Of a stretch of DNA of 64,000 nucleotides, positions 18,673 through 33,034 are shown piece after piece; positions within the stretch are counted from its first letter, which is position 1; each line of letters opens with the position of its first letter. Origin of the DNA: Lachnospiraceae bacterium. Its GTDB lineage: Bacteria; Bacillota; Clostridia; Lachnospirales; Lachnospiraceae. Where the stretch lies: assembly GCA_910575775.1 (NCBI GenBank), contig CAJTEY010000001.1, positions 434,001 to 498,000 of the forward strand, in the 5' to 3' direction. Both the position numbers and the translations under genes were made by a program. Under the pieces are notes generated by a model that made no database searches, had not been told where the DNA came from, and saw only the letters and a program-made list of their open reading frames with translations.

Positions 18673-20319
18673 TTATAAAATATTTATTAATTCCTCTTTC
18701 CGCGGCCGAACCAGATATTCCCGGCTCAAATCCAGCTTTTTTATTTCTCTCTCGTTGAAACAGGTGATAAGCTGTACCAGTTCTTCTTCGTTATAAGCCA
18801 CTCCGTATCGTTTCCCTTCCCATTCTCTGGGCATATAGGTAAAGGTAATGTCCCCAGCCATCCCCAATACAATAACCTTTTTTCCATACATAACCGTCTC
18901 ATAAGATGTTGTTGACTTTGCCGTAATCACAACGTCTGCCCGTTCTATTGCCTCCTGAAACGACTGATCCAAAAATACATGCTCACAAGCTAATTCATTG
19001 ATACCATAATCGCTAAGCGTTCTGGTGCTTAACTGTGGGTGGTTCTTGATATATACTTTGATCCCCTTCTCTTTCAGCCATGTGTCAATTCCCTTTATCA
19101 TTTTTAGAATTCTGGCAGAAGTCGCTTCTTCATAGCTCAAAGCCACCAGGATTCTGTTTTTCCTTCCTGCATAACAATCATTTTTTCCCGCTTTAATTCG
19201 AAAAGCCGGAAACAGAATCGTTGCGGTTTCCCTACAAAAGCGTTTGGGGCTATTAAGAAAAATCCCCCCTATCACACCGATCTGTCTGGGTGCAGCCTTT
19301 TGCCTTATCTGCTCTTTTGACGGCGCAAGGGAAATCCAGTTTGCATCCATTGCAAAGCCTATATATCCAATACTTTTTCCCTCTTTATACAATTTGTTAT
19401 ACGCAGTGAACAGGCCCACCGAACTAGGCTGTCCTTCATACCATCCCACCAGCGTTTCTATTTCTATTTTTCTTTGCCGCATCCTTCTGATTAACAGGTA
19501 TTTCAGTACACACTCCTGTGTCTGTGCTGATGACATGGTTCTTTTCAGATCTCCATTGATGATCGGGGTAACGTCTATCCCATCGAAATATTTTTTACCC
19601 CTGCAGAAACATCGGTTCCAAAAGGGAATTGGCAAAAGCTTTAAGTAATCCTGCCTCTTTAAAAAGTGCTCTTTTAAAACAGTATTCTGGCTCCTGTGCT
19701 TCCTGATCTTTTTGATCAGTCCCTTCTGATCCGACATAATGTCATCCACCAGTAGCGGCAAAAATACGATTTTTTTGTCTGCCAGCTCTTCGATTGGATC
19801 AAACAGGCGATCCCTGTAAATCCCTTTTCGCACATGCGAAGCTAAGATTTCCGAATCTGCCAGAACAATACGACTGCCCGACTGCACTGCTTCCGGCTCG
19901 CTCCACGTTTTTTCCACATATTCTTTTATCAAAAGATTCCGGGCAAATTGTGATATAAATGTAACATCATCAAACCTTGCGGCGTTTTTATCTGCAAATA
20001 TCGCAACTTCCCTGTCTCTGTCTTGAAAATACTTAAACAAAACACATTTGATTTCCTCACAGGGAACGATGATTTCACAAATCTCAGCGTCCTGCTCTGC
20101 CTTTTGAATCGCCAGCAGTACCAGACAAATCTCTTTAAATGCTGCTGAAAGCCAAGGATTCCTGCTTGCCAGACTGGTCGCCCACCAATACAGATTACCT
20201 TTCCACTTCCTGCTCAAATGGTCTATCATCTCTGTATAGACACTACTGTTTTCTTCAAACAGAATGTTGAAAAGCCTTGTGTCTTCCTGAGTCATTTCAA
20301 CCAAATTCAGCTGTTTCAT
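18673..20319 (-). CDS. GT-B-like surface carbohydrate transferase, unknown specificity
   Basis: A 548-residue cytoplasmic protein. The last 150 residues read VYIKNHPQLSTRT, HVFLDQSFQEAIERADVVITAKSTTSYETVMYGKKVIVLG. This resembles the nucleotide-sugar domain of GT-B enzymes and of Leptospira-type surface carbohydrate proteins. The N-terminal 350 residues are helical with no recognised motif. I chose the ATG at 20319 (MKQLNLVEMTQEDTRLF) behind a GGAG site; a start at 20472 would overlap the methyltransferase gene by 130 bases. Likely transfers a sugar or sugar acid in this glycan pathway. Family assignment is tentative. Confidence 0.65.
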   Translation of the reverse strand: MKQLNLVEMTQEDTRLFNILFEENSSVYTEMIDHLSRKWKGNLYWWATSLASRNPWLSAAFKEICLVLLAIQKAEQDAEICEIIVPCEEIKCVLFKYFQDRDREVAIFADKNAARFDDVTFISQFARNLLIKEYVEKTWSEPEAVQSGSRIVLADSEILASHVRKGIYRDRLFDPIEELADKKIVFLPLLVDDIMSDQKGLIKKIRKHRSQNTVLKEHFLKRQDYLKLLPIPFWNRCFCRGKKYFDGIDVTPIINGDLKRTMSSAQTQECVLKYLLIRRMRQRKIEIETLVGWYEGQPSSVGLFTAYNKLYKEGKSIGYIGFAMDANWISLAPSKEQIRQKAAPRQIGVIGGIFLNSPKRFCRETATILFPAFRIKAGKNDCYAGRKNRILVALSYEEATSARILKMIKGIDTWLKEKGIKVYIKNHPQLSTRTLSDYGINELACEHVFLDQSFQEAIERADVVITAKSTTSYETVMYGKKVIVLGMAGDITFTYMPREWEGKRYGVAYNEEELVQLITCFNEREIKKLDLSREYLVRPRKEELINIL

Positions 20320-20341
20320 AATTGTAAAAGCTCCTATGCGG

Positions 20342-21205
20342 CTATTTCTTTTCACATATAATTCCGGCCAGCTCAACTCTTGCATTTTTATAATGCCGCA
20401 CGTTAAATCCCAAAATAGTACGGGGTCTGCATTCCTTATAGCTTCCGTTTCTGCTCTTAAGCAGCCACACACGCCGCTTTGTTCGGAAAAACTCTTTCAC
20501 CAGCCTTTCATATTCTAAAACCGACCTGATATATCCCCAGAAAACTCCTCTGTGATATTTTTTTCCTGCCAATTTTTCTTTTAAAAAGTCTCCCAGTTGA
20601 GGAGCTGTATCCACAATGATAAATATGCCACCCTTTTTTAATATCCGAGACACATTCTTTACAATTCCTTTGATCTCTTCATCCTTCATGCAATACAAAA
20701 CCAGATTTGTCCATACCACATCATAGGAAGCGTCCGGCAGTTCTGATAAATCCTGTGAAACCCAATACTTTGCCACTTTGATATCTTTACTCTTTAAATA
20801 AGAAAAGGACGCACTCTGGCATTCCTGCAGTTCTACATCATAGCCCTTCTTAATCATATATGCTTCAATCAGACCTACCCCACAGCCTACCGAAAGGCAT
20901 TTCGGGTTTATCATTTTCTTTTCCGCAGTAACAGACTGCACCGTTTTTTCCAGCCATCTCGCATATCTGTTTTTGTCTTTATAATAATTAATCTGGAATT
21001 TCCACCCGTTAGCTCCCAGCATTCTGTAAAATTCCTGAAAGAAATCAGCGCTCACAACCTCAGACTTTTTCTTATGAGTCAGAACACATATCTTTTCCAG
21101 AGAAAGATCCTGCCATTCTGTCTGCCATAGTTCATACATCCATTTATTTTTTAATACGGTCTTCATTCTGCAGCTCTTCCCTCTTCCCCGAATTACAATT
21201 TTCAT
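20342..21205 (-). CDS. class I SAM-dependent methyltransferase
   Basis: A 287-residue methyltransferase with motif I CLSVGCGVGLIEAYMIKKGYDVEL near residue 108, motif IV DASYDVVWTNLVLYC, and ILKKGGIFIIVDTAP after it. The C-terminal extension of about 100 basic residues may bind the acceptor. The start at 21205 shares one base with the acetyltransferase stop (TAATG), indicating coupling. Together with the acetyltransferase upstream it likely adds tailoring groups to a surface sugar. Confidence 0.78.
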   Translation of the reverse strand: MKIVIRGRGKSCRMKTVLKNKWMYELWQTEWQDLSLEKICVLTHKKKSEVVSADFFQEFYRMLGANGWKFQINYYKDKNRYARWLEKTVQSVTAEKKMINPKCLSVGCGVGLIEAYMIKKGYDVELQECQSASFSYLKSKDIKVAKYWVSQDLSELPDASYDVVWTNLVLYCMKDEEIKGIVKNVSRILKKGGIFIIVDTAPQLGDFLKEKLAGKKYHRGVFWGYIRSVLEYERLVKEFFRTKRRVWLLKSRNGSYKECRPRTILGFNVRHYKNARVELAGIICEKK

Positions 21206-21936
21206 TATGCTTTACCGATTCTCTCCCGTTTCCACTGCACATTTCCTCTTATTTTCTTACAGGGGATTCCTACATAAATTGCATTCCCCTCATACCCCCC
21301 CCCCCCCGAAACTAAACACTTACTTCCAAAAATAGCCCCATCTTCTATGGTTACCCCCTTTAGGCAGGTAACATCCTCACCAAACCATACATCCCGCCCA
21401 ATTTTAATATTTGCTGCTAAATTCGTTCTAACTCTATCTGCTAAATCAATAATCGAATGAGAATCACTTGACTGTATGTGCGAATTCGTCGAGAACATAC
21501 ATCCTTTTCCTATCTCAACTCTTGTCCCCTCCAAAACTGTCCATTTCGCATCATTTCCCACATCCACTTCGTCTTTTATAATGAGCTTGCTTCCCATGTC
21601 ACCGACATGAATCAGAGAGTTCCGCAATACTACGCCTTTTCCAATAACAATTCTGTTGCCTGATCCAATCATTTCAAACGATACATTGTGAATCCTTGCT
21701 CCTCTATCGATAGAAATTACATGGCCTGTTCCGTCAAACAAGAAACGGCACCCTGTTATCCTGCATTCTTCATGTGAAGCACATGTGTCTTTTTTAATCT
21801 CAATTTTATTTCTCTGCCCTACCACGGCCAGTTTATTGCTTATTCTGTTTTTCATCAAAAACTGTATTTTCTGGCATGGCCCCATTTCCAGCCACAAACC
21901 GCCAAATATATGCTCTAATACTTTTGTGCAACACAT
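21205..21936 (-). CDS. hexapeptide acyltransferase with an in-frame G13 tract
   Basis: A 243-residue left-handed beta-helix acyltransferase. Hexapeptide turns appear throughout (IGSGNRIVIGKGVVL, VEIGKGCMFS, IKIGRDVWFGEDVTCLKGVTIEDGAIFGSKCLVS). The C-terminus NAIYVGIPCKKIRGNVQWKRE is the usual end of CysE/NodL-like acetyltransferases. Thirteen Gs on the coding strand encode four consecutive glycines just before that end. Thirteen is the in-frame length (3n+1), so the gene is now ON; any one-base change would remove the C-terminal lid. The ATG at 21936 has a GAGG site; a later ATG (MKNRISNK) is possible. Probably acetylates the surface sugar. Confidence 0.82.
   Translation of the reverse strand: MCCTKVLEHIFGGLWLEMGPCQKIQFLMKNRISNKLAVVGQRNKIEIKKDTCASHEECRITGCRFLFDGTGHVISIDRGARIHNVSFEMIGSGNRIVIGKGVVLRNSLIHVGDMGSKLIIKDEVDVGNDAKWTVLEGTRVEIGKGCMFSTNSHIQSSDSHSIIDLADRVRTNLAANIKIGRDVWFGEDVTCLKGVTIEDGAIFGSKCLVSGGGGYEGNAIYVGIPCKKIRGNVQWKRERIGKA
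21295..21307 (-). repeat. poly-G tract (13 G on coding strand), candidate slipped-strand switch
   Basis: Thirteen Cs on the plus strand, the longest homopolymer in the window. In the coding strand it falls in frame as four Gly codons plus the last base of a Ser codon. Its length is far above what codon use would require, which is the hallmark of a contingency locus. Confidence 0.9.
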
Positions 21937-21953
21937 CTATGTTATTCCTCTGC

Positions 21954-23315
21954 CTAAACCTGTTCGCCTGCCGAAGTAGTACAGCACACATTCTGCAGCA
22001 TCATCGGCTTCCCAGTCCTCTTATATAGTGCAACTACGCTGCTACTCCCGTCTCCATAATAGGCATCGCTCAACACCACAGCCCGGTCCATGTCCGCCGT
22101 ATCGTCATAGATCCCCCATCCTTCTTCGCAGTATTTCACCACAATTCTTCGATACGCTTCCCAAAGCTGCGGGCGCATAGATTCGATGGTCGCCTGGATC
22201 AGCGGATGGGGTCTCCAAAGCAGAGCCACTTCATCTTTGCTTTTTTTTAAAATCGCGAATACAGACTCCATCTTTCGCAGCATCTTTTCGTCACTGTATA
22301 ATAGCGCACTCACACTCGTATTATAAAAAACAATCTTCTTCCAGCTCCCGTCCGGCTTTTCAATAATCCTCAGCCACTCCGCCGGAATCTCCAGATCCTC
22401 TCTTTTTGTATTCAGAACCTTGTCAATCTTCGGTGACCCTGTCCCCAGAAACTTCTTCTCCAGGAACTTCCTGTCCACATGCTCACCGGGCAGTCCCATT
22501 TCCTTTGCAGCCTTGATATATTCATTGATGTAAATCTGCCGCATATTTTCCGACTGCACGATTACCTGATGGGCAAAAATTGTCCCCGGCGTAAAGCAGA
22601 AATGCTTCATCCCATCAATCGCTGACTGATTGCCAGGATCAATCTCACTCAAAATGAAATAAGGAATATACACTAATTTGTCTGTAAAATTTCTCAAATT
22701 TTTGGCATAGAAATAAGGATGCACGCTGGTCACATGATTGCACTCATCGTAAGGATTGTGAATATAGATTTCATCCGGCCTGCGCGCTTCCAGATCATAT
22801 GCATCATAACGGGTGACCGGCACATACGCCGGATACTGGTCTCCCTCATAGTGCTCTTCCCTAAAACTCCCATCCGGGTTCTTATCAAAATACGGAATGG
22901 GAATCACATAGGCATCGCAGTCAGGATCGGCATCCGCTGCCTTCCAGACGCTCTCCAGGGAATCCCACATGGATGCTTTATAGGGAAGAAACACGATTTC
23001 TTTTCTGTCCTCCGGCAAATCATACTTGATGCCATTTTTCAGCCCCGTCAACTGCTTTTGAATTTTTTTTGACACTTTCCGGCACGCATTTTCATCCGAC
23101 AGGCTCTCACTCACCTGATAAATGTTCTCGCAGTATTCCTCGAGAATATGTACAAGATTTGCATACTTTTCACCTAATGTGTCTATGTAAGTGCCGAGGG
23201 CAATCGCCGACTCCTGGCACTGTGCCAGAGCCTCGGCAGCCCCCTGCGGATTGGAACGGACAGTTTTTGCAATCGCGTCATTGGCATGAAGCAGGGTATC
23301 TGCCATCTGCAGCAT
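21954..23315 (-). CDS. CDP-glycerol glycerophosphotransferase-like glycan transferase
   Basis: About 453 residues. Segments EIVFLPYKASMWDSLESVWKAA, DEIYIHNPYDECNHVTSVHPYFYAKNL, VALLWRPHPLIQATIESM and LSDAYYGDGSSSVVALYKRTGKPMM follow the order of the GT-B, TagF/CDP-glycerol transferase-like superfamily. RPHP and the DGSSSV loop match the donor-binding His and Ser positions. I place the start at the ATG at 23315 (MLQMADTLL) behind AGGA. The frame continues to a TTG at 23543, but that extension runs through palindromic DNA that looks non-coding. It is the first glycan gene of the left cassette. Confidence 0.72.
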   Translation of the reverse strand: MLQMADTLLHANDAIAKTVRSNPQGAAEALAQCQESAIALGTYIDTLGEKYANLVHILEEYCENIYQVSESLSDENACRKVSKKIQKQLTGLKNGIKYDLPEDRKEIVFLPYKASMWDSLESVWKAADADPDCDAYVIPIPYFDKNPDGSFREEHYEGDQYPAYVPVTRYDAYDLEARRPDEIYIHNPYDECNHVTSVHPYFYAKNLRNFTDKLVYIPYFILSEIDPGNQSAIDGMKHFCFTPGTIFAHQVIVQSENMRQIYINEYIKAAKEMGLPGEHVDRKFLEKKFLGTGSPKIDKVLNTKREDLEIPAEWLRIIEKPDGSWKKIVFYNTSVSALLYSDEKMLRKMESVFAILKKSKDEVALLWRPHPLIQATIESMRPQLWEAYRRIVVKYCEEGWGIYDDTADMDRAVVLSDAYYGDGSSSVVALYKRTGKPMMLQNVCCTTSAGEQV

Positions 23316-23437
23316 GTCTTTTTTCCTGTATCGTTCCACCGCTTCTGCCTTCCTTTCTGCCGTGCAAGCAAATTTCATTCCGCCGTGCAAGCTCGATTCC
23401 GCTCCGCTCCATCTCGCTTCGGGCTTTCGCCCTATCA

Positions 23438-23494
23438 TCTCAGGCAAAGCCGGAAATATGTCTGCAGGCAGCCACTTCCTGCCTTTGCCTGAGA
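23438..23494 (-). repeat. stem-loop with 12-bp perfect arms
   Basis: Arms TCTCAGGCAAAG (23438-23449) and CTTTGCCTGAGA (23483-23494) are perfect reverse complements. An inner 5-bp stem (GCAGG/CCTGC) is nested in the 33-base loop. There is no following T-run, so it is not a simple terminator. Confidence 0.7.
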
Positions 23495-23546
23495 CGGCAC
23501 GGCTCAACGAAAAAAATCTGACATAAAATATGTCTTGTCTCAATTA

Positions 23547-23572
23547 TGACAATTCCATACTTTATATCAGAT
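23547..23572 (+). repeat. 26-bp inverted repeat, left copy flanking the ATPase gene
   Basis: Reads TGACAATTCCATACTTTA... on the plus strand. It matches the reverse complement of 25282-25307 at 24 of 26 positions. The two copies bracket the ATPase gene and its promoter. Confidence 0.65.
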
Positions 23573-23625
23573 TTCTCTGCTTCTCTGTGCAATTTACTCT
23601 GCAAAACAGGCGAGCCGGGAAATGC

Positions 23626-25218
23626 TTACACCACCGCCTCCACCACAGTCTTATCCCCGACTGTGATTGTTTTTACACCGACTTCTTTCTTTTGGTTAAA
23701 GTTAAAGCTGAGCATATAACCTTTATTCTTGTGATAATAATTCAGATAATCCACAAGCTGCTGTTCGCCGCGCTCGTTGTATTCATCTCCGTGCCAGATC
23801 TTTAATTCGACTATGAACTGCTCGCCGAGGTAATCTACAATGACATCCGTGCGTCTTTCATCTCTCGTCTGCGCTTCGAGATAATAATTGCCACTTCCAT
23901 TAATAATAGGTTTTAAGTACAGCAGGAAAAACTTTCGACCGTATTTCTCGATGAACTTCATATCCCTCTCGCTGTATATTTCCGTAAAATAGGAAACAAA
24001 CTTTTCCAGAACCAAATCCATATCCAGTTGATTGTTCTTAATGAATCCGATTCTGTCGCTTCCGCCCTGCGCGTAGATGTCGCTGCGAATTGCTTCCTTT
24101 GCCATAAACATATTCAGCAGGCACATCTCAAACAAGCGGTTCGCCACCGTCACACAGCCGTTTTCCTCCTTCAAAAACCCAAACATAACGCCAAGGTTTA
24201 TAGACTTTACTTCCAGACTATGCGGAATCCTTTTTCCGCAATATATGATATCCTCCACTATTTTGTAAAGATCATCGTAAGTATCAAGCTGTTTCACCAT
24301 GCTCTCAAACAACAGATTACTTCCCTTTAATATCACATCAACTGCTTTATCAATGCCCTCTTTGGACCACGCCTTTTTTGCATCCTCAAATCCCACACTT
24401 CCCATGATCTTTTCATCGATACGCTTACAGACCAAAGAGGTGAGCATCGGATAGCCCGAGGTATAGGCATAGATTTCATCTGCCACAGCCCGTATGTCCA
24501 TCCCTGTATGATAATCAGCTTCATATTCCGACAGCATGCCTGCAATCTGTTCCGATGAAAAATTCATCTCAATATCAAAGTCAGCAGCAATGTTCCACGG
24601 GCTGTTGTACTGGTGTTCCGATTCGGGGCGAAGTTTCAGCTTCAGGTTTTTAATGCTGTATACCCCAGCAAGGATGACTGAATGAAAAATTGGCTTTCGA
24701 TCCCGTTTCAGATAGGCACCTCTCAACAATGCAAGAAATTTAACAAACACCTGATTATTTCCCGCACTGTCCACCTCGTCAATAATAAGCACGATCGGAC
24801 GGACGCTTTCACTGCACATACGGCTCAGGAGCTTAAACATCTCATCCATTTCTATCTGAGGATTCTGCACAATAAAATCCGACACCATACCATACAGTTT
24901 CTGCACTTCCTCATCTTCCCGATTTTCAAGAGCATCACGCAGCATACTTACAAAGGCAAGAGAAAATGTATCCCCACTCTCAAATTTTTCATCCGGCATC
25001 TCCTGAAAATCCAGAGAAAACACAAAATAGTCTTCCGCCAAATACTCAGCCAAAGCCCGCAGCGTGGTAGTCTTCCCGTACTGTCTGCCCTTATTGATGA
25101 CAAAGTATTTTTTTCTGTCTACCAGTTTTCTCTTAATTTGTGCCATCCTGTCATCCAACCGCACCATATAATGTTCTTCCGGCCTGCACAATCCCTCTGT
25201 ATTGAAATATCTCGTCAT
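23626..25218 (-). CDS. AAA-family ATPase with C-terminal PD-(D/E)XK nuclease-like domain
   Basis: A 530-residue protein. Walker A is GRQYGKTT (residues 44-51) and Walker B IVLIIDEVD (142-150). The middle is helical (sensor and winged-helix region). The C-terminus RTDVIVDY...FIVELKIW (456-475) fits the PD-(D/E)XK pattern, with Asp458 and Glu471-x-Lys473. This is the common AAA_ATPase-like/DUF1703 architecture, often found in variable loci; its cellular role is not settled. The ATG at 25218 has GGGAGG eight bases upstream, better than the ATG at 25236. It has its own promoter (25250-25278) and is bracketed by 26-bp inverted repeats, suggesting an inserted cassette unrelated to glycan synthesis. 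Confidence 0.82.
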   Translation of the reverse strand: MTRYFNTEGLCRPEEHYMVRLDDRMAQIKRKLVDRKKYFVINKGRQYGKTTTLRALAEYLAEDYFVFSLDFQEMPDEKFESGDTFSLAFVSMLRDALENREDEEVQKLYGMVSDFIVQNPQIEMDEMFKLLSRMCSESVRPIVLIIDEVDSAGNNQVFVKFLALLRGAYLKRDRKPIFHSVILAGVYSIKNLKLKLRPESEHQYNSPWNIAADFDIEMNFSSEQIAGMLSEYEADYHTGMDIRAVADEIYAYTSGYPMLTSLVCKRIDEKIMGSVGFEDAKKAWSKEGIDKAVDVILKGSNLLFESMVKQLDTYDDLYKIVEDIIYCGKRIPHSLEVKSINLGVMFGFLKEENGCVTVANRLFEMCLLNMFMAKEAIRSDIYAQGGSDRIGFIKNNQLDMDLVLEKFVSYFTEIYSERDMKFIEKYGRKFFLLYLKPIINGSGNYYLEAQTRDERRTDVIVDYLGEQFIVELKIWHGDEYNERGEQQLVDYLNYYHKNKGYMLSFNFNQKKEVGVKTITVGDKTVVEAVV

Positions 25219-25249
25219 ACCCTCTACCTCCCGCATTTCCTATAACGAT

Positions 25250-25278
25250 ATTCTAATATTTTCTCCACGGAATGTAAA
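25250..25278 (-). promoter_or_regulatory. sigma-A promoter of the ATPase gene
   Basis: On the minus strand TTTACA (25273-25278), a 17-base spacer and TAGAAT (25250-25255). The start of transcription would be near 25243, 25 bases before the ATG at 25218. Confidence 0.65.
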
Positions 25279-25281
25279 GGT

Positions 25282-25307
25282 ATCTGCTATAAAGTATGAA
25301 ATTGTCA
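25282..25307 (-). repeat. 26-bp inverted repeat, right copy flanking the ATPase gene
   Basis: Reads TGACAATTTCATACTTTA... on the minus strand and matches 23547-23572 at 24 of 26 positions in opposite orientation. It lies just upstream of the ATPase promoter. Confidence 0.65.
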
Positions 25308-25321
25308 AGGTACCTATAAAC

Positions 25322-25624
25322 TTGAATCATCATAAGAATTAGCCGGGCGTTTCCGCCTGCGTCTTATAGCTATATAAGACCGCTTCGCTCCGTGTAGGCC
25401 ACGGTCCTGGCATATCGGAAAGCCGTCAAAAAACAGCTCAGGTAATGCCGTCTGGGAGCTGCCTTCCGGCAGCCTTCCCGGCCCGCTGTATTCTCACACA
25501 GCATTTATGTGCATCATGTATCTCTGCGATCCGTCCGCCTTACGGCATCATCCGATAAAACCTTCCATCCAAACGTCCGCAGACATATGGATATGGGTTC
25601 ATTCCCAGAGCTGCATGAATCAGC
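25322..25624 (-). ncRNA. candidate TnpB-type guide RNA scaffold (omegaRNA-like)
   Basis: The 300 bases directly after the TnpB-like stop have no gene but are rich in compact hairpins on the transcribed strand. These are GCC-GTAA-GGC (25537-25546), GCTGCC-GGAA-GGCAGC (25458-25473), an 8-bp stem GTCTTATA/TATAAGAC (25361-25380) and GGCG-GAAA-CGCC (25346-25357). Three are capped by GNRA tetraloops. The stretch ends in ATTCAAG, whose TCAA matches the right-end cleavage motif of IS608-type elements. In TnpB loci the omegaRNA overlaps the 3' end of the gene and runs through the right end, with the guide just beyond. By position the guide would start near 25321. No transcript evidence is available. 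Confidence 0.55.
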
Positions 25625-26965
25625 CTATTCTCTTTTCCCCTCCTGCGATTTTCTGTAGATCTGCTCTATCCTCCTCGCCCCGTTCAGCGCGATGGAACTT
25701 TGAAAACCACAGGTTTCACAGATGAATCCCTCCGCCAGACGTTTCCCCTCTGACCCGCATGACGAGCAGATACTGCCTGTTCCTTTGGAAGAAATCTCCA
25801 CCAGGGTAATGCCGTTTGTATGGCATTTCTGCAACATTCTTCTTCGGACATATCCCTGCGGACTTTCCGAATGTTTCCTGTTTGCCGGTTTATACCCGGG
25901 GTTCTTTTTATTAATCGTGACAGGCTTTGTAATGACGATCGTACCAGGCTTTTCCGCTTCCAGCATTCGATTAATTCCGGCGTTGACATAGGACTCAATC
26001 TGTGCCTGTTCCTTTTTCTTCCGATGGTCATACTTGATGCCGCCAAGGTTATTCGCCTCTATGTCCGCCGCCTTTTTCCTGTCGCCCTCGGCTATACTTT
26101 TTCGGTAGCTGTTTCGCATTCTGCCCCGCTCCCGGTTTTTCTCCATCAGCCGTTCGCTTTTGGCGGATGCCAGCTCCCCCAGTCCTTCCCCGTATATGTT
26201 CCCGGATGACAGCGTACACATATCGCGGTATCCAAGATGGACAAAAATGGTATTCTGATAATCCTCATGCCGCCGCATCTTCCTATTGACCGGAAGCGCA
26301 ATTGCCACATCGCTTTGTCTGATACAGATGCGGAGCTGTCTGTCGCATGTCCTGTCGTCTTTCAGAGGAAGCCGTATTCTCTTTCTGGGCACTCTTGATA
26401 CGAGGCAGAGCGCACCGTCCCTGTAGGAATAGCCTCCCGGCGATACGCAGAAGCTGTCCGCCCTGCCCGACGGCGCAGGCTTAACCAGATATCTTCTGGT
26501 AAGTCTCCGCAGGAGATTATTCAGGCGTTCCGTATCAATCGCAAGTCCCGCCGCCTTCTCCGGCATCGGATACTCTACTCTGTTTAAGATGGCAGCGTAT
26601 ACAGGATCGAGCCGTAAAACCGTCCGCAAATATAGTCTGTCTTCATCGCTCAGATTTTCATTAGCCGAAACGAGGGTGCGTATTTTATTTTTCAACATCC
26701 CCCACATGCCCTTGATGTCCGTGATCGCATCCCGCACCGCAAGTTCATAGTATACGGAAGGCAGGCCAAGCTGCTCCCGCAGTCCACAATGCCGCATTTG
26801 GGTCATAATGTCATAGATGGAGGCCAGAAGCCCGAGGCTTGCAATTCCGGAATACCGCTCGTAAACGCTGTGTTTCACCTTCGCATAATCTTCCGCGATT
26901 CCTCTAAGAAAATCCATGGTTTCCTGCGGGAGCGTTTCCGTGTACTGCCAGGCTATCTTTGTCAT
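25625..26965 (-). CDS. nuclease-dead TnpB-family protein (TldR-like candidate)
   Basis: A 446-residue protein with the whole TnpB/Cas12f-like layout: helical N-half, a WED-like basic beta region (RKRIRLPLKD), a split RuvC domain and a zinc finger CSSCG...CETCG (Cys 400, 403, 416, 419). All three RuvC acidic positions are changed. RuvC-I IDLG-type Asp is His (FVHLGYRDM, residue 243); the RuvC-II Glu of IVVEDL is Thr (IVITKPV, 346); the RuvC-III Asp of DxNAA is Ala (IALNGA, 426). The frame is otherwise complete, so it is not a decayed pseudogene. Nuclease-dead TnpB homologues (TldRs) are known RNA-guided repressors. The ATG at 26965 follows AAGGA. It is the first gene after the invertible promoter. 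No TnpA transposase is nearby. Confidence 0.82.
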   Translation of the reverse strand: MTKIAWQYTETLPQETMDFLRGIAEDYAKVKHSVYERYSGIASLGLLASIYDIMTQMRHCGLREQLGLPSVYYELAVRDAITDIKGMWGMLKNKIRTLVSANENLSDEDRLYLRTVLRLDPVYAAILNRVEYPMPEKAAGLAIDTERLNNLLRRLTRRYLVKPAPSGRADSFCVSPGGYSYRDGALCLVSRVPRKRIRLPLKDDRTCDRQLRICIRQSDVAIALPVNRKMRRHEDYQNTIFVHLGYRDMCTLSSGNIYGEGLGELASAKSERLMEKNRERGRMRNSYRKSIAEGDRKKAADIEANNLGGIKYDHRKKKEQAQIESYVNAGINRMLEAEKPGTIVITKPVTINKKNPGYKPANRKHSESPQGYVRRRMLQKCHTNGITLVEISSKGTGSICSSCGSEGKRLAEGFICETCGFQSSIALNGARRIEQIYRKSQEGKRE

Positions 26966-27047
26966 GCGGTTTTCCTTCTGCATATCCTTCCCCATGTCCG
27001 ACAGTCAGTCATTCTGCCCATCACAGCTCATACCTCAAATATTGCTC

Positions 27048-27074
27048 TTTCGTAGAATTGCATATTCTGCGAAA
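27048..27074 (+). repeat. 27-bp inverted repeat, left boundary of the invertible segment
   Basis: Perfect reverse complement of 27411-27437. Each copy is itself an imperfect palindrome, TTTCGTAGAAT-N5-ATTCTGCGAAA, with one mismatch between arms. That is the shape of a recombinase core site with two binding arms around a short crossover region. Confidence 0.9.
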
Positions 27075-27113
27075 GTTGTATTTGTGCTGCCTGTAATATT
27101 TATATCGTTATTT

Positions 27114-27142
27114 ATTATATATTGCATAAGTCTTTTTGTCAA
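27114..27142 (-). promoter_or_regulatory. perfect consensus sigma-A promoter inside the inverted-repeat segment
   Basis: On the minus strand TTGACA (27137-27142), exactly 17 bases of spacer, then TATAAT (27114-27119). Transcription should begin near 27107, giving a leader of about 140 bases before the TnpB-like ATG at 26965. Confidence 0.88.
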
Positions 27143-27410
27143 TTTTCTGAAAGATAGTGAACGAACGCTAAGTTTTCCTTGATTCATCCCATTTTTCGCA
27201 GATTCTGTTGTAAAAATTCCTGATAATTCGTAAATTCCATATGTTTCCTTGGCTTTTTGTGGTCACATAAATGGTCAGAAAAAGAACTGCTTATACTGCA
27301 TGAGCCCTTGCTGGATTCGTGACTTTTCACAGGATGCATCCTGTTTAATTGTGGTCAGTCTGTCAGATATCGGAAAAAATGCTCTGTATCTATGTGACAA
27401 CCAGGAACCG

Positions 27411-27437
27411 TTTCGCAGAATATGCAATTCTACGAAA
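27411..27437 (-). repeat. 27-bp inverted repeat, right boundary of the invertible segment
   Basis: Perfect reverse complement of 27048-27074, 336 bp away. It lies 28 bp left of the terminator region that ends the upstream operon. Confidence 0.9.
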
Positions 27438-27465
27438 TTATTTGTGCCATTTTTTATTCGAAGCA

Positions 27466-27508
27466 CAAAAAGGGCTGTGAAAAACGGAAATCTCCGTTTT
27501 TCACAGCC
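27466..27508 (-). terminator. strong intrinsic terminator after the aminotransferase-PseG gene
   Basis: A 16-bp perfect stem, GGCTGTGAAAAACGGA with its complement (27473-27488 and 27493-27508), four-base loop, followed on the minus strand by CTTTTTG. It lies 20 bases past the stop at 27529. The plus strand lacks a T-run, so it should act mainly leftward. Confidence 0.9.
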
Positions 27509-27528
27509 TTGATCTGCTATATTCTTCC

Positions 27529-29691
27529 TTATAACTTCATTATCTCTCCTGCGATCCGTTCCGCTCCCAGGCCGTCCGTCACCCGCGCAAGCCTGCCTGC
27601 CATGCGCTCTCTCAGTGCAGTGTCAAACACAAGCCTTTTCAATCCCTCGCAGACCGCTCCGATACAACCCTCTCTGTCCCGCCTGATATCCCCGGCGAAA
27701 AGCATACGCTCTTCCTCTTCAAAAAACTCTCTGTCATAGCGCTGGTTGTCAGCCGACTGGAAAAATACGGTTGGAACCTGCATTGCGCACAGCTCAAACA
27801 ACATTGTCCCCGCTGCGGAAACCGCCGCGTCGCAATCCGCCATCAGCCCTGCCATATCATGGCAGGGACGGTGAACCTTCACGTTTTCACAGGTTCCTGC
27901 AAACGCCTCGATGGCATCGCCCTGCGGATGGTATGCCCCCACCACCACATGAAAAACAACCGTTTTCAGCTCCTGCATCTGCACCACCCGCTGTAAAATG
28001 CCGAGAATGGCATTGTGCGCATCCCCGCCGCCGCTGGCAAGAAGCACGGAAAAAAATTTTTTCTCCTTTGGCGCATCCTTGATCTTGGTCACGCCAAACT
28101 CCTCCCGCAGAGGCACATAATCCGTTCCCAGAAGCAGCTTTGTCTTATCGCCATAGATCTCCTCATAGGGAAACCGGGTGTGATACGCATTATAATTAAT
28201 CAGCGCATCCACAGGGAAAACCTGCTCAAAACAATCGTCGATGCAGGCCGCTTTCACAAATTCCCGAAGCTCCTCGAAATAAGCGGGTGTCACCTGATAG
28301 GAATCCACCAAAAGGGTTCTGATTCCTGCAAGCTGCACAACCTCCCTCAGTACCGGCAGTTCTTCCTCCATATGATCCCACCGCGTATGCAGGCAGACAT
28401 GCTCCATCTCAGCCCGGGAAAGCATGTCGTCCGCCTGCCCGTCCGCCGTGATAAACAATACCTGCCCGCCCATTTTTATAATCTGCTGCGCTATGGTAAT
28501 GCAGCGCATCATATGCCCAGCAGCCACCGTCTCGTTGGCGTCCGCGCGAATACCGATTACAGGCTGTTTTTCATATAAAGCGAGAACTTCCGCAATCTGC
28601 TCCATCTCCGCATCTCCATATCGCTGATCAATGGGCAGCGCAAGCATGTGCTCAAAAATATAGGCCTCGTTCCCTCCCAGAACTTCCCGGTTCTCCTCTC
28701 CCACCGGCCAGAGTACCGGGGCGTAAACACCGTGTTTTGCCAGAAACCGCTGTAAGCTGTCCCGCTCCTTCGCATAAACCGGCAAGTAGAGTGGCGCCTG
28801 CGCTTCCTCTCTGAAAAGCACCGGCCAGAACCTTTTCATACCGCAGATACGGTCATACAGCGTATCGTAATTTTCCGCCCGCTGACGGCATGCCTCCTCC
28901 TCGTTCACCTTGGAAAGAATCTCCGCAGATATATGTGACATGCGGCGTACACCCCGATAGCAGTCAAGCGTATGCTCCAGCGCCCGGTTTTGTTTGAGAT
29001 ACTCCGATTTCTTCGGCAGCCATCCCGCAGTCAGGGCGCCTCCCGTCCGTCTCTCCTTTTCCTGCAGATACTCCCATTTCTGGACAAGGGGAGCCAGCCG
29101 CTGTCTTGCATATTCCTCTCCCGGTTCCAGTACATCCTCCGCCAAAGGCAGGTCGGAAACCGCAAAACCGCCATCGGGAACCGCATACCATTTCCGCAGA
29201 CTCCCCACCACAAAATCGGCATCCCCACACGCATGATCCAGATAATAGGACTGAGTCACATCCTCCATCACCAGGACGCCTTTTTTTCTGAGAGCCGCCA
29301 GCTGCCTTCTAAGTCCTGTGCAAGTATCCGCTCCATAATATGGATGAACAAAAATAAGCCCGGCATCATGCGAAAACGCCAGACGAAACAGCTCCTCTCC
29401 CGCCGTCTCCAGATCCCTGTCCACAGGATAGAAAACCAGTTTCCAGCCCAGATGCAGAAACGGCAGAAAAACACAGTCGCACATATAGGCCGGCATCAGA
29501 CAGCATTTCGATATGTCCGGCTTTTCCCGTTCCAGGCTGATCAGGGCAAGCTCAATCGCTTCCCTGCCGGAAGCCGTAAAACAGCACTGTTTTTTTCCAT
29601 ATTTACCCACATGCGCAAGATGAAGCGCTTCCGTTATCCCGCCTTTTCCCACTGCAGCAGGATCTATCTCAAAAATACTTCCGATTTCCAT
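27529..29691 (-). CDS. fusion of a DegT-like aminotransferase and PseG
   Basis: A 720-residue two-domain protein. Residues 1-370 form a PLP aminotransferase-like domain: CFTASGREAIELAL, VLVMEDVTQSYYLDH with the PLP Asp, and GSLRKWYAVPDGGF with the Schiff-base Lys at 167. Residues 376-720 are PseG: GIRADANETVAAGHMMRC with the catalytic-type His393, LLASGGGDAHNA, and SAAGTMLFELCAMQVPTVFF. PseG hydrolyses UDP from 2,4-diacetamido-2,4,6-trideoxy-altrose in the pseudaminic acid route. The ATG at 29691 follows GGAGG at seven bases. Operon partners pseB and pseC support the pathway. The N-domain is not a second PseC; its substrate is unclear. Confidence 0.83.
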   Translation of the reverse strand: MEIGSIFEIDPAAVGKGGITEALHLAHVGKYGKKQCCFTASGREAIELALISLEREKPDISKCCLMPAYMCDCVFLPFLHLGWKLVFYPVDRDLETAGEELFRLAFSHDAGLIFVHPYYGADTCTGLRRQLAALRKKGVLVMEDVTQSYYLDHACGDADFVVGSLRKWYAVPDGGFAVSDLPLAEDVLEPGEEYARQRLAPLVQKWEYLQEKERRTGGALTAGWLPKKSEYLKQNRALEHTLDCYRGVRRMSHISAEILSKVNEEEACRQRAENYDTLYDRICGMKRFWPVLFREEAQAPLYLPVYAKERDSLQRFLAKHGVYAPVLWPVGEENREVLGGNEAYIFEHMLALPIDQRYGDAEMEQIAEVLALYEKQPVIGIRADANETVAAGHMMRCITIAQQIIKMGGQVLFITADGQADDMLSRAEMEHVCLHTRWDHMEEELPVLREVVQLAGIRTLLVDSYQVTPAYFEELREFVKAACIDDCFEQVFPVDALINYNAYHTRFPYEEIYGDKTKLLLGTDYVPLREEFGVTKIKDAPKEKKFFSVLLASGGGDAHNAILGILQRVVQMQELKTVVFHVVVGAYHPQGDAIEAFAGTCENVKVHRPCHDMAGLMADCDAAVSAAGTMLFELCAMQVPTVFFQSADNQRYDREFFEEEERMLFAGDIRRDREGCIGAVCEGLKRLVFDTALRERMAGRLARVTDGLGAERIAGEIMKL

Positions 29692-29730
29692 AAGCATTCC
29701 TCCGCCCAACGCCCATTTTTCTTGTCGTGT

Positions 29731-30756
29731 TTATCCGTGTCTCTTCCTGAAGTTCCGATACGCCCACAACAGTTTATAATACGCCATAAACCACAGCGTG
29801 GATTTCATCTGCATACGAATCAGCTTTTTCTGTTCCTCGTGAGTGCGCGCAAGGTAGTACGGGTTTTCCTGGAATTTCGGAAAACGGCAGCGCATCTCCT
29901 CCCCCAGCTTTTTCACAAACCGATACTTTGTCCGTTTCACACCCGCCATATAGGTAAACAGCGTATTCACATAAAAGAGCAGGGTAAAGCTGTACTCCAG
30001 CTCCGGCCGGTATTTATCCAGAAAATCATGCCGCTCAGCTTCTTTTAACATCAGCCTGCCGGCTTCGCATCGGTCCTCACACCGCTTCTCTGAAATGGTG
30101 TGCACGGTGGAGGACTCATGCTGGTAATAGTAATACAGCGGTTCCTCGATATACTCGAAATGATTGGCCAACACCAAATAAGAATTTCCCAGCGCATTGT
30201 CCTCATAAAAGATATGCTCCGGGAACCAGAGTTCATGATCCATGATCATAGAACGGCGGAATATCTTTACCACAAGACTGCCGCCGTCCAGAATCAGACT
30301 CCGCCTCTTCTCATCATCAAGAACCCCCGTCTGGCCGCTCTTATTGTTATGCACCACCTGTCCCACTTTCATGGAATGTTCCGAAGTCAGGCAATAGTCG
30401 CATCCCACCAGATCAGCTCCTGTGCTTTCCGCCCGTCCGATCAGACGCTCGTACATATCGGGCGTAATCCAGTCGTCGCTGTCGATAAATCCAATCCACT
30501 CTCCCTGCGCTATTTTTAAACCTGCATTTTTCGCGCCGCCCTGATGCTTATTCTCTTCCAGATGCAGCGCGTGGAACTTATCCGGAAAACGTTCCTCGTA
30601 CCCTTTCAGTATTTCCCACGACTCATCGGTGGAGCAGTCGTCCACCGCAATGATCTCATAGTCCGCCACCGTCTGTGCCACAAGCGAATCCAGACAATAT
30701 TCCAGTTTTTTGTCCGCCGCCATATTGTAGACCGGAACAATGATACTAAGTTTCAT
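29731..30756 (-). CDS. GT2 family glycosyltransferase
   Basis: A 341-residue GT-A transferase. It starts MKLSIIVPVYNMAADKKLEY, then YEIIAVDDCSTDESW, and the donor/metal motif GFIDSDDWITPDMYERL near residue 95. GCDYCL and a basic C-terminal region of about 100 residues follow. It is soluble or peripheral. The start overlaps the membrane-protein gene by 11 bases. Likely adds a sugar to the glycan built with PseB/PseC products. Donor and acceptor are unknown. Confidence 0.87.
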   Translation of the reverse strand: MKLSIIVPVYNMAADKKLEYCLDSLVAQTVADYEIIAVDDCSTDESWEILKGYEERFPDKFHALHLEENKHQGGAKNAGLKIAQGEWIGFIDSDDWITPDMYERLIGRAESTGADLVGCDYCLTSEHSMKVGQVVHNNKSGQTGVLDDEKRRSLILDGGSLVVKIFRRSMIMDHELWFPEHIFYEDNALGNSYLVLANHFEYIEEPLYYYYQHESSTVHTISEKRCEDRCEAGRLMLKEAERHDFLDKYRPELEYSFTLLFYVNTLFTYMAGVKRTKYRFVKKLGEEMRCRFPKFQENPYYLARTHEEQKKLIRMQMKSTLWFMAYYKLLWAYRNFRKRHG

Positions 30757-33034
30757 CTGCGTCCTCCAACTCCTCTCCTTTCAGCCGTCTGCTAAACCAT
30801 CCTTTATTAAAACAGTACAAAACCGTCAACGCGGAAACTATATCCGCAATGACAAATCCCCACACTGGCCCGTAACGCACATAAATCCGATGCTCCGTGC
30901 CGTCTCCTTTTGTATAAAAACGCATCCGACCGCCGTCACCCCGCTCTATCTTCACGGGCTGCCCAAGCTCATCCTGCGCCCGGTATCCAAGATAATTCTG
31001 CAGGGGCAGTTCCAGATATGCCTCAGAGGAAATCGCCGTGTAGGACACAGCCGCCTTCGTCCCCTCCTTCTTATAGTCACGCACGGACACATCTCCGATA
31101 TCCGATAGAACCACACTGGTGGTCAGTTTGTCATCCGTCGCGTCAATCAGCCGCCATTCATGAGGATAAAACAGGCCCACGCTTGTGCCCAGTTTCGTCT
31201 CATGCCCTTTAGAGGCAACCGACTGCGCGTCCTTATAGGGCACATGATTGTTGTCGGTGGGCACGGTAACGATAATCAAAAGATTCAGCCCCACCAGCAT
31301 CGCGGCTATCACATTCCGATATGGCTTCAAAAACGTCGAACTGGCAAGGCCGGCTGCTCCCACAAAGAGAAAGCAGGCGGATGCCGGACCGAGAAAACGC
31401 CAGGGGAACTGCAGCATTGTGGCAACATTGTAAAAAAGGCCGTTCGCCATAAGCGCCCTGCTCGGAAAATACCCTGTCGTCAGAAAAACAAATATGCCGC
31501 CAAGCACAAAAAGGTAAAGCGTATAGCCGTCCGTCCCGCTTACCCGTCCCCGCTTTTCACACAAAAGATAAATGACCCCGATCCCCACACAGCCCAGAAG
31601 GGCAAGTCCCAGTGAAAAGTACTGTTTATTATACAGACTTATGGACTGCGTCATATTGGAGAGATTGATCGACTGCTCATAGTAGCCGCTCCACCGCAAG
31701 ACCTCCTTGTCCAGCTCTTCATTATAGTAATAATATAAGAACGGCGTCACATACCAGGCATTCAATAAGACAGTAAGCGCTGCCGCCTTGGCCAGCTCCA
31801 CATACCGCCTCTCCTTCGCGATACGCACACAGTACAGGAGTACGGTAACCACGCAGACCGCCGCCACATAAGCTACACTTAAGATATGGCTATGCAGGGC
31901 TCCCGAAAATCCAATGACCAGAAAATACCATTTTTTCCGATCCCCCATAACAATATGATAAAGTCCCGCAATTACCATCGGCCAGAACACCAGCGCCAGT
32001 ATCTCTCCCAGATCCCCTCTGGAAAGCATGTTGGTAAACCGATAAGGCATCAGCGTGTAGAGCACCACCGCCAGCAGCACGCTCCGTCTGGATTTTACCA
32101 TTGATTTTACCGCCACATAGGCACAGACCGCCGCACCTAAATTCGACAGAAAAAGCAGTACCTTGTACGAAAAGGCCAGCGAAACCCTGCATATCCGCAG
32201 AAAAGCGCCTATGTATAAAAACAGATAGGGGTACATGGCGTTCATATAGCCATTGTTCTGCAATCCTTCCGGCAGAATATTGACAGGGATCACCTGTCCG
32301 TCAAGGATGCCGTCCTTAAGCCCCTCCAATCTGGCCAGATGATAGCAGAGATCGTCCGCATTGTACAGATACGTATGCATGATAGGGGTGGTGGCGAGAA
32401 GTGTCACTCCAAGAATCACGCTGGCGTCCACAAGTCCTTCCCCTGAAATTCTCCTGCCGCTTCTCAGATACAGCCAGAAAGCAAGGTGCAGAAGCAGAAA
32501 AACCGCAATGATAAAATATGTGTCCGTGTAAAAAAGCGTATGGGGAGTGATGGAAAATTTCTTGATGGTGAGCGTACCGCTTCCGCAGTAGTTTACGCGA
32601 AACTGCAGCTCTTTCGCATCTTTAGACAGCGTGAAATTCTCCGTCAGCTCCTTCATGCCAGGTTCAATCGGCCAGGCTGCAATCTTGTTGTTCTGTTCCC
32701 ACAGCTCCAGTACGCTGTCCTTCTGGTCAACGCTGTAACTCATGGATACCGTATAGCCACCTCTGTTCATAACATAGGCCGGCGTGCTCGCCACCGAACT
32801 GTATCCCGCCAGAATATCCCCCAGCGTCCTCAGATCCTCCGAGTCAATTAACCCTGCGGCATTCTTGATTACCAGCGCGTTTTCCGTATTAATCAGGCCC
32901 ATGGTATGCTGCAGCTCGATGCCGTCGTAGACGATGGGCTGCTTTCCCTCGTCCCCCAGCCATAAAAGTACGATAAACAGCGCCGCCAGCGACACATATA
33001 TAATTTTTGCCTTCAGTGATATTTCTTCTGTCAT
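30746..33034 (-). CDS. large multi-pass membrane protein (YfhO/GT-C-like)
   Basis: A 762-residue integral membrane protein. One N-terminal helix (residues 9-27) is followed by an extracellular beta-rich loop of about 150 residues. Then come ten or more hydrophobic helices (for example YFIIAVFLLLHLAFWLY, FLVIGFSGALHSHILSVAYVAAVCVVTVLL), and a C-terminal extracellular domain. DDLCYHLARLEGLKDGILDGQ matches the conserved acidic first-loop motif of YfhO-type proteins and polyprenyl-phosphate-sugar-dependent GT-C enzymes. It would transfer a sugar from a lipid carrier outside the membrane. It lies between pseC and a GT2. Confidence 0.75.
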   Translation of the reverse strand: MTEEISLKAKIIYVSLAALFIVLLWLGDEGKQPIVYDGIELQHTMGLINTENALVIKNAAGLIDSEDLRTLGDILAGYSSVASTPAYVMNRGGYTVSMSYSVDQKDSVLELWEQNNKIAAWPIEPGMKELTENFTLSKDAKELQFRVNYCGSGTLTIKKFSITPHTLFYTDTYFIIAVFLLLHLAFWLYLRSGRRISGEGLVDASVILGVTLLATTPIMHTYLYNADDLCYHLARLEGLKDGILDGQVIPVNILPEGLQNNGYMNAMYPYLFLYIGAFLRICRVSLAFSYKVLLFLSNLGAAVCAYVAVKSMVKSRRSVLLAVVLYTLMPYRFTNMLSRGDLGEILALVFWPMVIAGLYHIVMGDRKKWYFLVIGFSGALHSHILSVAYVAAVCVVTVLLYCVRIAKERRYVELAKAAALTVLLNAWYVTPFLYYYYNEELDKEVLRWSGYYEQSINLSNMTQSISLYNKQYFSLGLALLGCVGIGVIYLLCEKRGRVSGTDGYTLYLFVLGGIFVFLTTGYFPSRALMANGLFYNVATMLQFPWRFLGPASACFLFVGAAGLASSTFLKPYRNVIAAMLVGLNLLIIVTVPTDNNHVPYKDAQSVASKGHETKLGTSVGLFYPHEWRLIDATDDKLTTSVVLSDIGDVSVRDYKKEGTKAAVSYTAISSEAYLELPLQNYLGYRAQDELGQPVKIERGDGGRMRFYTKGDGTEHRIYVRYGPVWGFVIADIVSALTVLYCFNKGWFSRRLKGEELEDADET

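Follow-up and report, generated by a model that had tools for sequence, protein, structure and literature searches.

A nuclease-dead TnpB homologue with a predicted structured RNA, located behind an invertible promoter at a putative surface-glycan locus of a Lachnospiraceae bacterium

Here we describe a TnpB-like protein of 456 aa that has lost its nuclease centre and is encoded on the minus strand (25625..26995, open reading frame (ORF) taken from the first ATG) of a 64,000-nucleotide stretch of a Lachnospiraceae genome (GenBank assembly GCA_910575775.1, contig CAJTEY010000001.1, positions 434,001 to 498,000), referred to below as the window. The gene lies behind a putatively invertible promoter, is followed by a predicted structured RNA and precedes a predicted surface-glycan locus. 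Tentatively, and with a confidence somewhat short of even, we propose that the dead TnpB protein binds the leader RNA located just after its gene and thereby controls the operon which that RNA leads.

By sequence and by modelled fold the window protein is a TnpB homologue. It scored 33.8 bits against PF07282 (Cas12f1-like/TnpB C-terminal domain, curated cut-off 26.3) and 46.6 bits against NF040570, the latter being below the 100-bit cut-off of that model. Profile-profile alignment with hhalign to four other TnpB-family proteins, two of which (L106 and L108) carry the full acid set by reading, returned a probability of 96 and an E-value of 3.9e-9. This alignment paired FVHLGY with the GIDLGV strand, VITKPV with VIEDLN and SIALNGA with DRDMNAA, placing H253 (26237-26239), T356 (25928-25930) and A436 (25688-25690) at the RuvC-I Asp, RuvC-II Glu and RuvC-III Asp positions, respectively; the RuvC-III position was the same in a sequence-profile comparison with solved Cas12f chains. 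The zinc-ribbon cysteines 410, 413, 426 and 429 are present. An earlier note, made from the letters of the window, had read a full-length TnpB homologue with an intact four-Cys zinc finger and with His, Thr and Ala in place of the three RuvC acids, and all of this was borne out; it had the correct frame as well, but its length of 446 aa (25625-26965) was counted from an internal Met. A single AlphaFold2 model (mean predicted local distance difference test, pLDDT, 75.9; predicted template modelling score, pTM, 0.51) was used for a search of the PDB, in which Cas12f and TnpB relatives ranked first (best E-value 2.6e-9). Residues 1 to ~240 of the model superpose on solved TnpB/Cas12f chains at ~3 Å, while the arrangement of its domains is unreliable, many whole-chain fits having a root-mean-square deviation of 10-27 Å.

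The same genome encodes, on another contig, a second dead TnpB copy with 37% identity to the first. Matches to the Y1 transposase were located on contigs C17 and C23 of this genome only, with none on C1 or C3, the contigs of the two dead copies, which are in this respect set apart from a transposase, as TldRs are. Thirteen related loci belonged to Lachnospiraceae, including one Acetatifactor and one unclassified isolate, and the presence of the gene is patchy, since matches were detected in 11 of 61 relatives and 19 of 397 family genomes (the source genome being counted in both). For conservation analysis the window protein was aligned with 120 listed proteins out of 563 homologues passing an E-value of 1e-3 and with 66 locus translations, giving 187 rows, of which 20 locus rows are repeated loci and the database proteins may repeat loci too. 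At the three former RuvC sites the 187 rows are wholly free of acidic residues, and all of them keep the four cysteines. The commonest residue triads were HTA in the window type and APR, SPK or AVK in the second type. Of 20 pairs compared, 17 yielded a ratio of nonsynonymous to synonymous change (dN/dS, NG86 method), which fell between 0.060 and 0.145, most of these 17 having dS above 1; in the remaining three synonymous change was saturated or absent. Low dN/dS, retention of the cysteines and lack of acids in every row together support the view, put forward in the earlier note, that the dead form is selected for, with purifying selection apparently acting on a family in which loss of the three acids is fixed. 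Frequent truncation or relaxed selection, named there as grounds for doubt, did not emerge: degraded or truncated gene copies (L099, L100, L101 and G036) and one internal stop (L045) are the exception in this family. In L100 (G398:C75) an apparent internal deletion has spared the N-terminus up to about residue 144 as well as the zinc-ribbon end, and the RNA is present.

A structured scaffold RNA is predicted to adjoin the gene. Its core in the window (25329..25452, minus strand) resembles an omega RNA scaffold with a pseudoknot, ends in CTTAT plus 3 nt and is delineated by covariation and by a match of RNA model R1 at the same place; between the stop codon of the gene and this core lies a 5' leader part of variable length (25453..25624, minus strand), recognised by sequence comparison. 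Most loci have conserved sequence 3' of the gene ending in CTTAT or close variants, which is absent in L074. RNA extraction covered 46 loci, and start or end patterns were missed in eight of them (L013, L022, L035, L037, L043, L046, L051 and L060). Among 15 RNA sequences of the window type, 87.8% of pair cells were standard, and 20 of 33 pairs had changed on both sides, a number equalled in one of 500 shuffles. No shuffle out of 500 reached the observed paired share or covariation score; a further measure, counting pair types, was reached by 112 of 500. It should be noted that the helices were picked by eye from the same sequences, which favours them; as a guard, helix partners were slid, and pairing fell to 33-39%. 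The pseudoknot just 5' of the RNA 3' end was kept in 15 of 15 sequences through three different base-pair solutions. In the second RNA type, for which 16 of 23 cores were aligned (L038, L040, L045, L047, L048, L052 and L053 were left out as long or diverged), 93.5% of pair cells were standard and the pseudoknot barely varied; the distal part of one helix was 54% paired in A2. Rfam held no family matching the RNA, either in E-value mode over 24900-27600 or in gathering mode over ten loci.

Model R1 detected the RNA in five of 37 genomes, all five gene-bearing, and model R2 in 27 of 35 chosen genomes (G323, representing a third branch described below, was left out), with none of seven gene-free controls matched. 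Among the genomes searched, where at most ~95 candidates were scored in each and absence is therefore no proof, the RNA was found only where the gene or its remnant exists. The RNA is also placed close to coding sequence: of 45 loci measured, 39 have a same-strand ORF of at least 150 aa, the first after the RNA, beginning no more than 200 nt past the RNA end, and the other six (L012, L020, L034, L038, L046 and L060) include some at the ends of contigs or retrieved regions.

Of 42 R2 matches that were sorted by their neighbourhood, 31 follow an open full-length gene, one a gene with an internal stop and four degraded genes; three are cut by contig ends, and another three have no gene remnant detectable by tblastn. 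These three gene-less RNAs (L096, L097 and L098) all belong to one genome, G343, and are positioned ~300 nt after the start of a different inverted-repeat pair. Glycan-type genes follow the RNA in two cases: in L096 a glycosyltransferase is the second gene after it, and in L097 there is a nucleotidyltransferase. The same genome also has an intact gene (L074) with no RNA found in the 20 kb of that locus. The simplest reading of these sequences is that one locus may supply the protein and another the RNA, and that retaining the RNA on its own is of advantage.

Upstream of the dead TnpB gene, a 336-nt segment (27075..27410) is enclosed by two 27-nt inverted repeats with 100% complementarity, the proximal at 27048..27074 and the distal at 27411..27437. 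Each repeat reads as a tyrosine-recombinase crossover site, having two arms and a short spacer. The segment contains a sigma-70 type promoter-like site (27114..27142, minus strand; TTGACA-17-TATAAT, 12/12) directed towards the gene, i.e. in the ON orientation, and has no recombinase gene inside. Compared with relatives, it aligned flipped, with a score of 112 against 9 unflipped for L003 and of 68 against 11 for L005, the same promoter being directed away from the gene in both; over all comparisons, eight of 13 segment pairs were flipped. The alignments thus indicate that the promoter segment occurs in both orientations among related genomes, in agreement with the invertible promoter suggested previously. 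At up to three mismatches, the crossover-like site occurs four times in the source genome; these sites form two inverted pairs, and each dead TnpB has one of the pairs upstream. A reversed control pattern had no occurrence in the whole genome. The segment of the second copy, as in many relatives, encodes a tyrosine recombinase inside (Phage_integrase by Pfam). It is the only close recombinase encoded in the genome, the next best being 31% identical.

Across the family, in which repeat arms are ~21-34 nt long, an inverted-repeat pair with at least 21 of 24 positions was detected in 28 of 43 loci having at least 650 nt upstream, versus none of 43 shuffled stretches. Fifteen of the 43 had no pair within the tested stretch; ten of these had only ~1500-1600 nt upstream. 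In L011 and L014 pairs were located farther upstream. A second class of switch was seen in L062, L063, L078, L096, L097 and L098 and, more weakly, in L070, where loops of ~100 bp lie between TTGCAAAAAGTATAGGTTTTGCAA-type repeats and no match to the second-copy recombinase is present nearby. In the window, a terminator-like hairpin follows the upstream gene (27473..27508, minus strand).

The earlier note had likened the protein to TnpB-like nuclease-dead repressors (TldRs), whose original report of 2024 reportedly concerned fliC- and oppF-associated members. The dead RuvC centre and the adjacent predicted RNA fit this likeness; RNA guidance, its other component, gained no support from patterns of 15-21 nt searched in the source genome. 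In the window copy, the guide position (25314..25331, minus strand) shares its first 6 nt with close relatives, the rest being unconserved. Patterns taken there, of 21 nt with three mismatches or of 15 nt with one, matched only themselves in their own genome; likewise, the 21-nt pattern of the second copy (three mismatches) matched only itself. Guide-position patterns gave nothing above chance in the window, nor did 14 guides tried against sibling loci (matches of at least 10 nt being listed) or 30 guides tried against 29 promoter regions of sibling loci. The mean match of a guide to a sibling promoter was 6.3 nt in 25 same-genome pairs versus 6.6 nt in 816 foreign pairs, and to its own promoter region 6.8 nt versus 6.6 nt. 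Two longer candidates were rejected, namely a 16-nt same-locus match in L063, A+T-rich nearly throughout, and an AT-rich 12-nt match in L008 to its own upstream region. On average over 43 loci, the first two 5-nt bins past the scaffold contained 85% and 79% A+T. In nine close pairs of loci the 120 nt before the RNA end were 82-96% identical, and guide positions 7-20 were 50-64% identical in eight pairs and 86% in one, values that stand without a baseline computed for so short an alignment. RNA-guided targeting is therefore not supported by the comparisons made. Between L011 and L012, which encode identical proteins in one genome, positions 7-20 differ. The two dead TnpB genes are identical over the aligned part (dN and dS of 0), their downstream genes differ, and the similarity stops just past CTTATGATGAT, which suggests that the sequence as far as the end of the scaffold was recently copied or converted.

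The proposed mechanism would operate as follows. The tyrosine recombinase from the segment of the second copy would flip both switches of the genome, and in the ON state a single transcript would span protein gene, RNA and operon. The protein, made from any locus, would bind the RNA on the nascent transcript in the way TnpB binds its omega RNA, and the complex would affect the very transcript to which it is bound. The simplest form of this would be antitermination, in which RNA polymerase is kept from stopping within a long untranslated leader and so enters a long operon; no guide would be required. Antitermination is our guess by analogy with operons of this type (surface polysaccharide, invertible promoter, untranslated leader), for which the Upx polysaccharide loci of Bacteroides fragilis, with their UpxY and UpxZ proteins, served as the model. 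There, too, an invertible promoter is followed by a regulator gene heading a surface polysaccharide operon, but UpxY is a NusG paralogue, whereas here we see a TnpB/Cas12f fold and a large RNA, and no NusG family was found in the Pfam scan. We favour the leader-RNA model because of the placement of the RNA, the existence of gene-less copies and the freedom of positions 7-20. The fuller picture, in which a transposon RNA-guided nuclease has turned into a guide-free leader-RNA factor, the omega RNA has become a portable cis element heading surface operons that undergo phase variation, and the dead TnpB, whether produced in cis or in trans, rides the nascent RNA and carries RNA polymerase through the operon, is conceivable, and we put it forward with considerable doubt.

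Several observations weigh against this model. Retention of the zinc ribbon in all 187 rows is more easily explained if DNA is still bound, since this element contributes in TnpB to holding the duplex of guide and target. TldRs, the nearest studied relatives, are guide-dependent, and linkage of the RNA to the leader would equally serve a trans guide made only when the locus is ON. A single draft genome supplies all the gene-less RNAs, and the one in L098 is separated by ~790 nt from the next ORF downstream on its strand (DUF1919). Cis action, antitermination and transcription of the RNA are themselves predictions. Furthermore, guide positions 1-6 are identical in seven of the nine close pairs (50% and 67% in the other two), and since a guide or seed of 6 nt was enough for a studied TldR according to PMC13418256, there is room for a very short guide; guides of 6-9 nt lie below the reach of the 15-21 nt patterns and of the sibling comparisons.

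One rival reading is TldR-like RNA-guided repression in trans, in which the dead TnpB and guide RNA of the ON locus would silence rival surface operons, in the manner of phage-encoded TldRs silencing host flagellin. Conservation of the zinc ribbon and of the first six bases, together with the TldR precedent, favours such guidance, as do the dead RuvC centre within a TnpB fold, the omega-like RNA with its pseudoknot right before the guide position and an order of parts similar to that of csrA-tldR loci with hin inversions. We regard it as a strong rival, if somewhat less likely than the leader-RNA model; against it speak the lack of a second match for the 15-21 nt patterns in their own genome, same-genome guide and promoter pairs that were no better than foreign ones, and a guide position that is AT-rich and unconserved past position 6. 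The variability of the guide position would itself be accounted for by a self-addressed R-loop: the bases past the scaffold necessarily repeat the leader DNA of the same locus, so that, if the scaffold end (CTTAT and variants) acted as a target-adjacent motif, the complex would always bind its own operon and cutting had to go. This would also account for the RNA being kept close ahead of an ORF and for the dead nuclease in every row. Against it, such a motif is hypothetical for this family, and ordinary TnpBs escape self-targeting since their right end lacks the motif. We consider this explanation improbable.

Binding of the complex to the invertible segment or recombinase region, biasing inversion, would agree with the common proximity of the gene and an inverted-repeat pair (28 of 43 loci), but L096, L097 and L098 have such a pair and the RNA without the gene, and the guide match to the own promoter hardly exceeds the foreign mean; we find this very improbable. 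That the gene is a functionless, decaying transposon relic, as its degraded copies might suggest, we hardly credit in view of the low dN/dS, the universally kept cysteines and the lack of a Y1 transposase match on the contigs of both copies.

With regard to known systems, the leader-RNA model concerns a protein that shares with the TldRs its derivation from TnpB, the lost RuvC acids, a structured RNA beside the gene and surface-structure genes nearby. It differs in that no guide target is identifiable here, that gene-less RNA copies exist in one genome, and that surface-glycan or secreted-protein genes are downstream. From Cas12f and TnpB nucleases, with which fold and zinc ribbon are shared, it is set apart by the missing catalytic acids and by the lack of a Y1 transposase match on the contigs of its two copies. 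The nearest precedent is formed by csrA-associated TldRs, for which PMC13418256 reports that upstream of the csrA-tldR flagellin loci there are hin genes and inversions of a promoter segment of ~120 bp; predicted cross-targeting guides are described there as well. Both cases feature a chromosomal dead TnpB behind an invertible promoter, with several copies per genome; Hin is a serine invertase in that account, whereas tyrosine recombinases and arms of ~21-34 nt are predicted here, and no flagellin family appeared in Pfam scans of the nine main ORFs of window positions 18673-33034 (the ORF listing began at 80 aa, and csrA is shorter than that). On the strength of that report we count the pairing of dead TnpB with an inverton as already known for flagellin loci, so that the context, which the earlier note did not know to be described, has a published precedent. 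The surface-glycan family, with its tyrosine-recombinase switch, RNA and gene-less copies, was not found in searches of open-licence literature, and the terms capsul-, polysaccharide and Lachnospir- had no match in the main text of PMC13418256. Viral contigs were scanned once, using two peptide patterns; of the seven stretches obtained, none was confirmed as a relative. If correct, our reading would mean that TnpB domestication reaches beyond flagellin to the control of cell-surface glycans in Lachnospiraceae; it would also link this domestication to phase variation by tyrosine recombinases and contribute an RNA matching no Rfam model. Genome G343, having an RNA-less gene and gene-less RNAs, offers a direct way to ask whether the system works with a guide or with the scaffold only.

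The genes downstream of the RNA are, as the earlier note had assumed, supported by sequence as a predicted surface-glycan locus. Between the RNA and the glycan genes lies a gene for an AAA ATPase with a PD-(D/E)XK-like domain (23626..25236, minus strand; Pfam AAA_35 and PDDEXK_3), whose start codon is 95 nt past the RNA end. The next gene (21954..23543, minus strand), without a Pfam match, is by reading a relative of the gene following the second-copy RNA in L016. An AAA ATPase starts 95-147 nt past the RNA end in the window and in L003, L004, L005 and L025 (Pfam was run on the window copy only), and the RNA-proximal spot looks as if it takes up extra genes such as this. In L035, L037, L044, L051 and L059 the module heads genes that by reading resemble those of secreted or surface proteins, not glycan enzymes.

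A third, distant branch of dead TnpB was seen in genome G323 (L131, 5062-6309; L132, 5205-6416, reversed), with apparent loss of the RuvC acids by reading. Here, too, inverted repeats form a pair upstream of the gene (18 nt in L131 and 12 nt in L132, ~350 bp apart). Model R2 gave no match at the L050 and L058 copies. The gene is followed by a different conserved sequence ending in GTTAT, and it precedes nucleotide-sugar genes (epimerase and UDP-glucose dehydrogenase).
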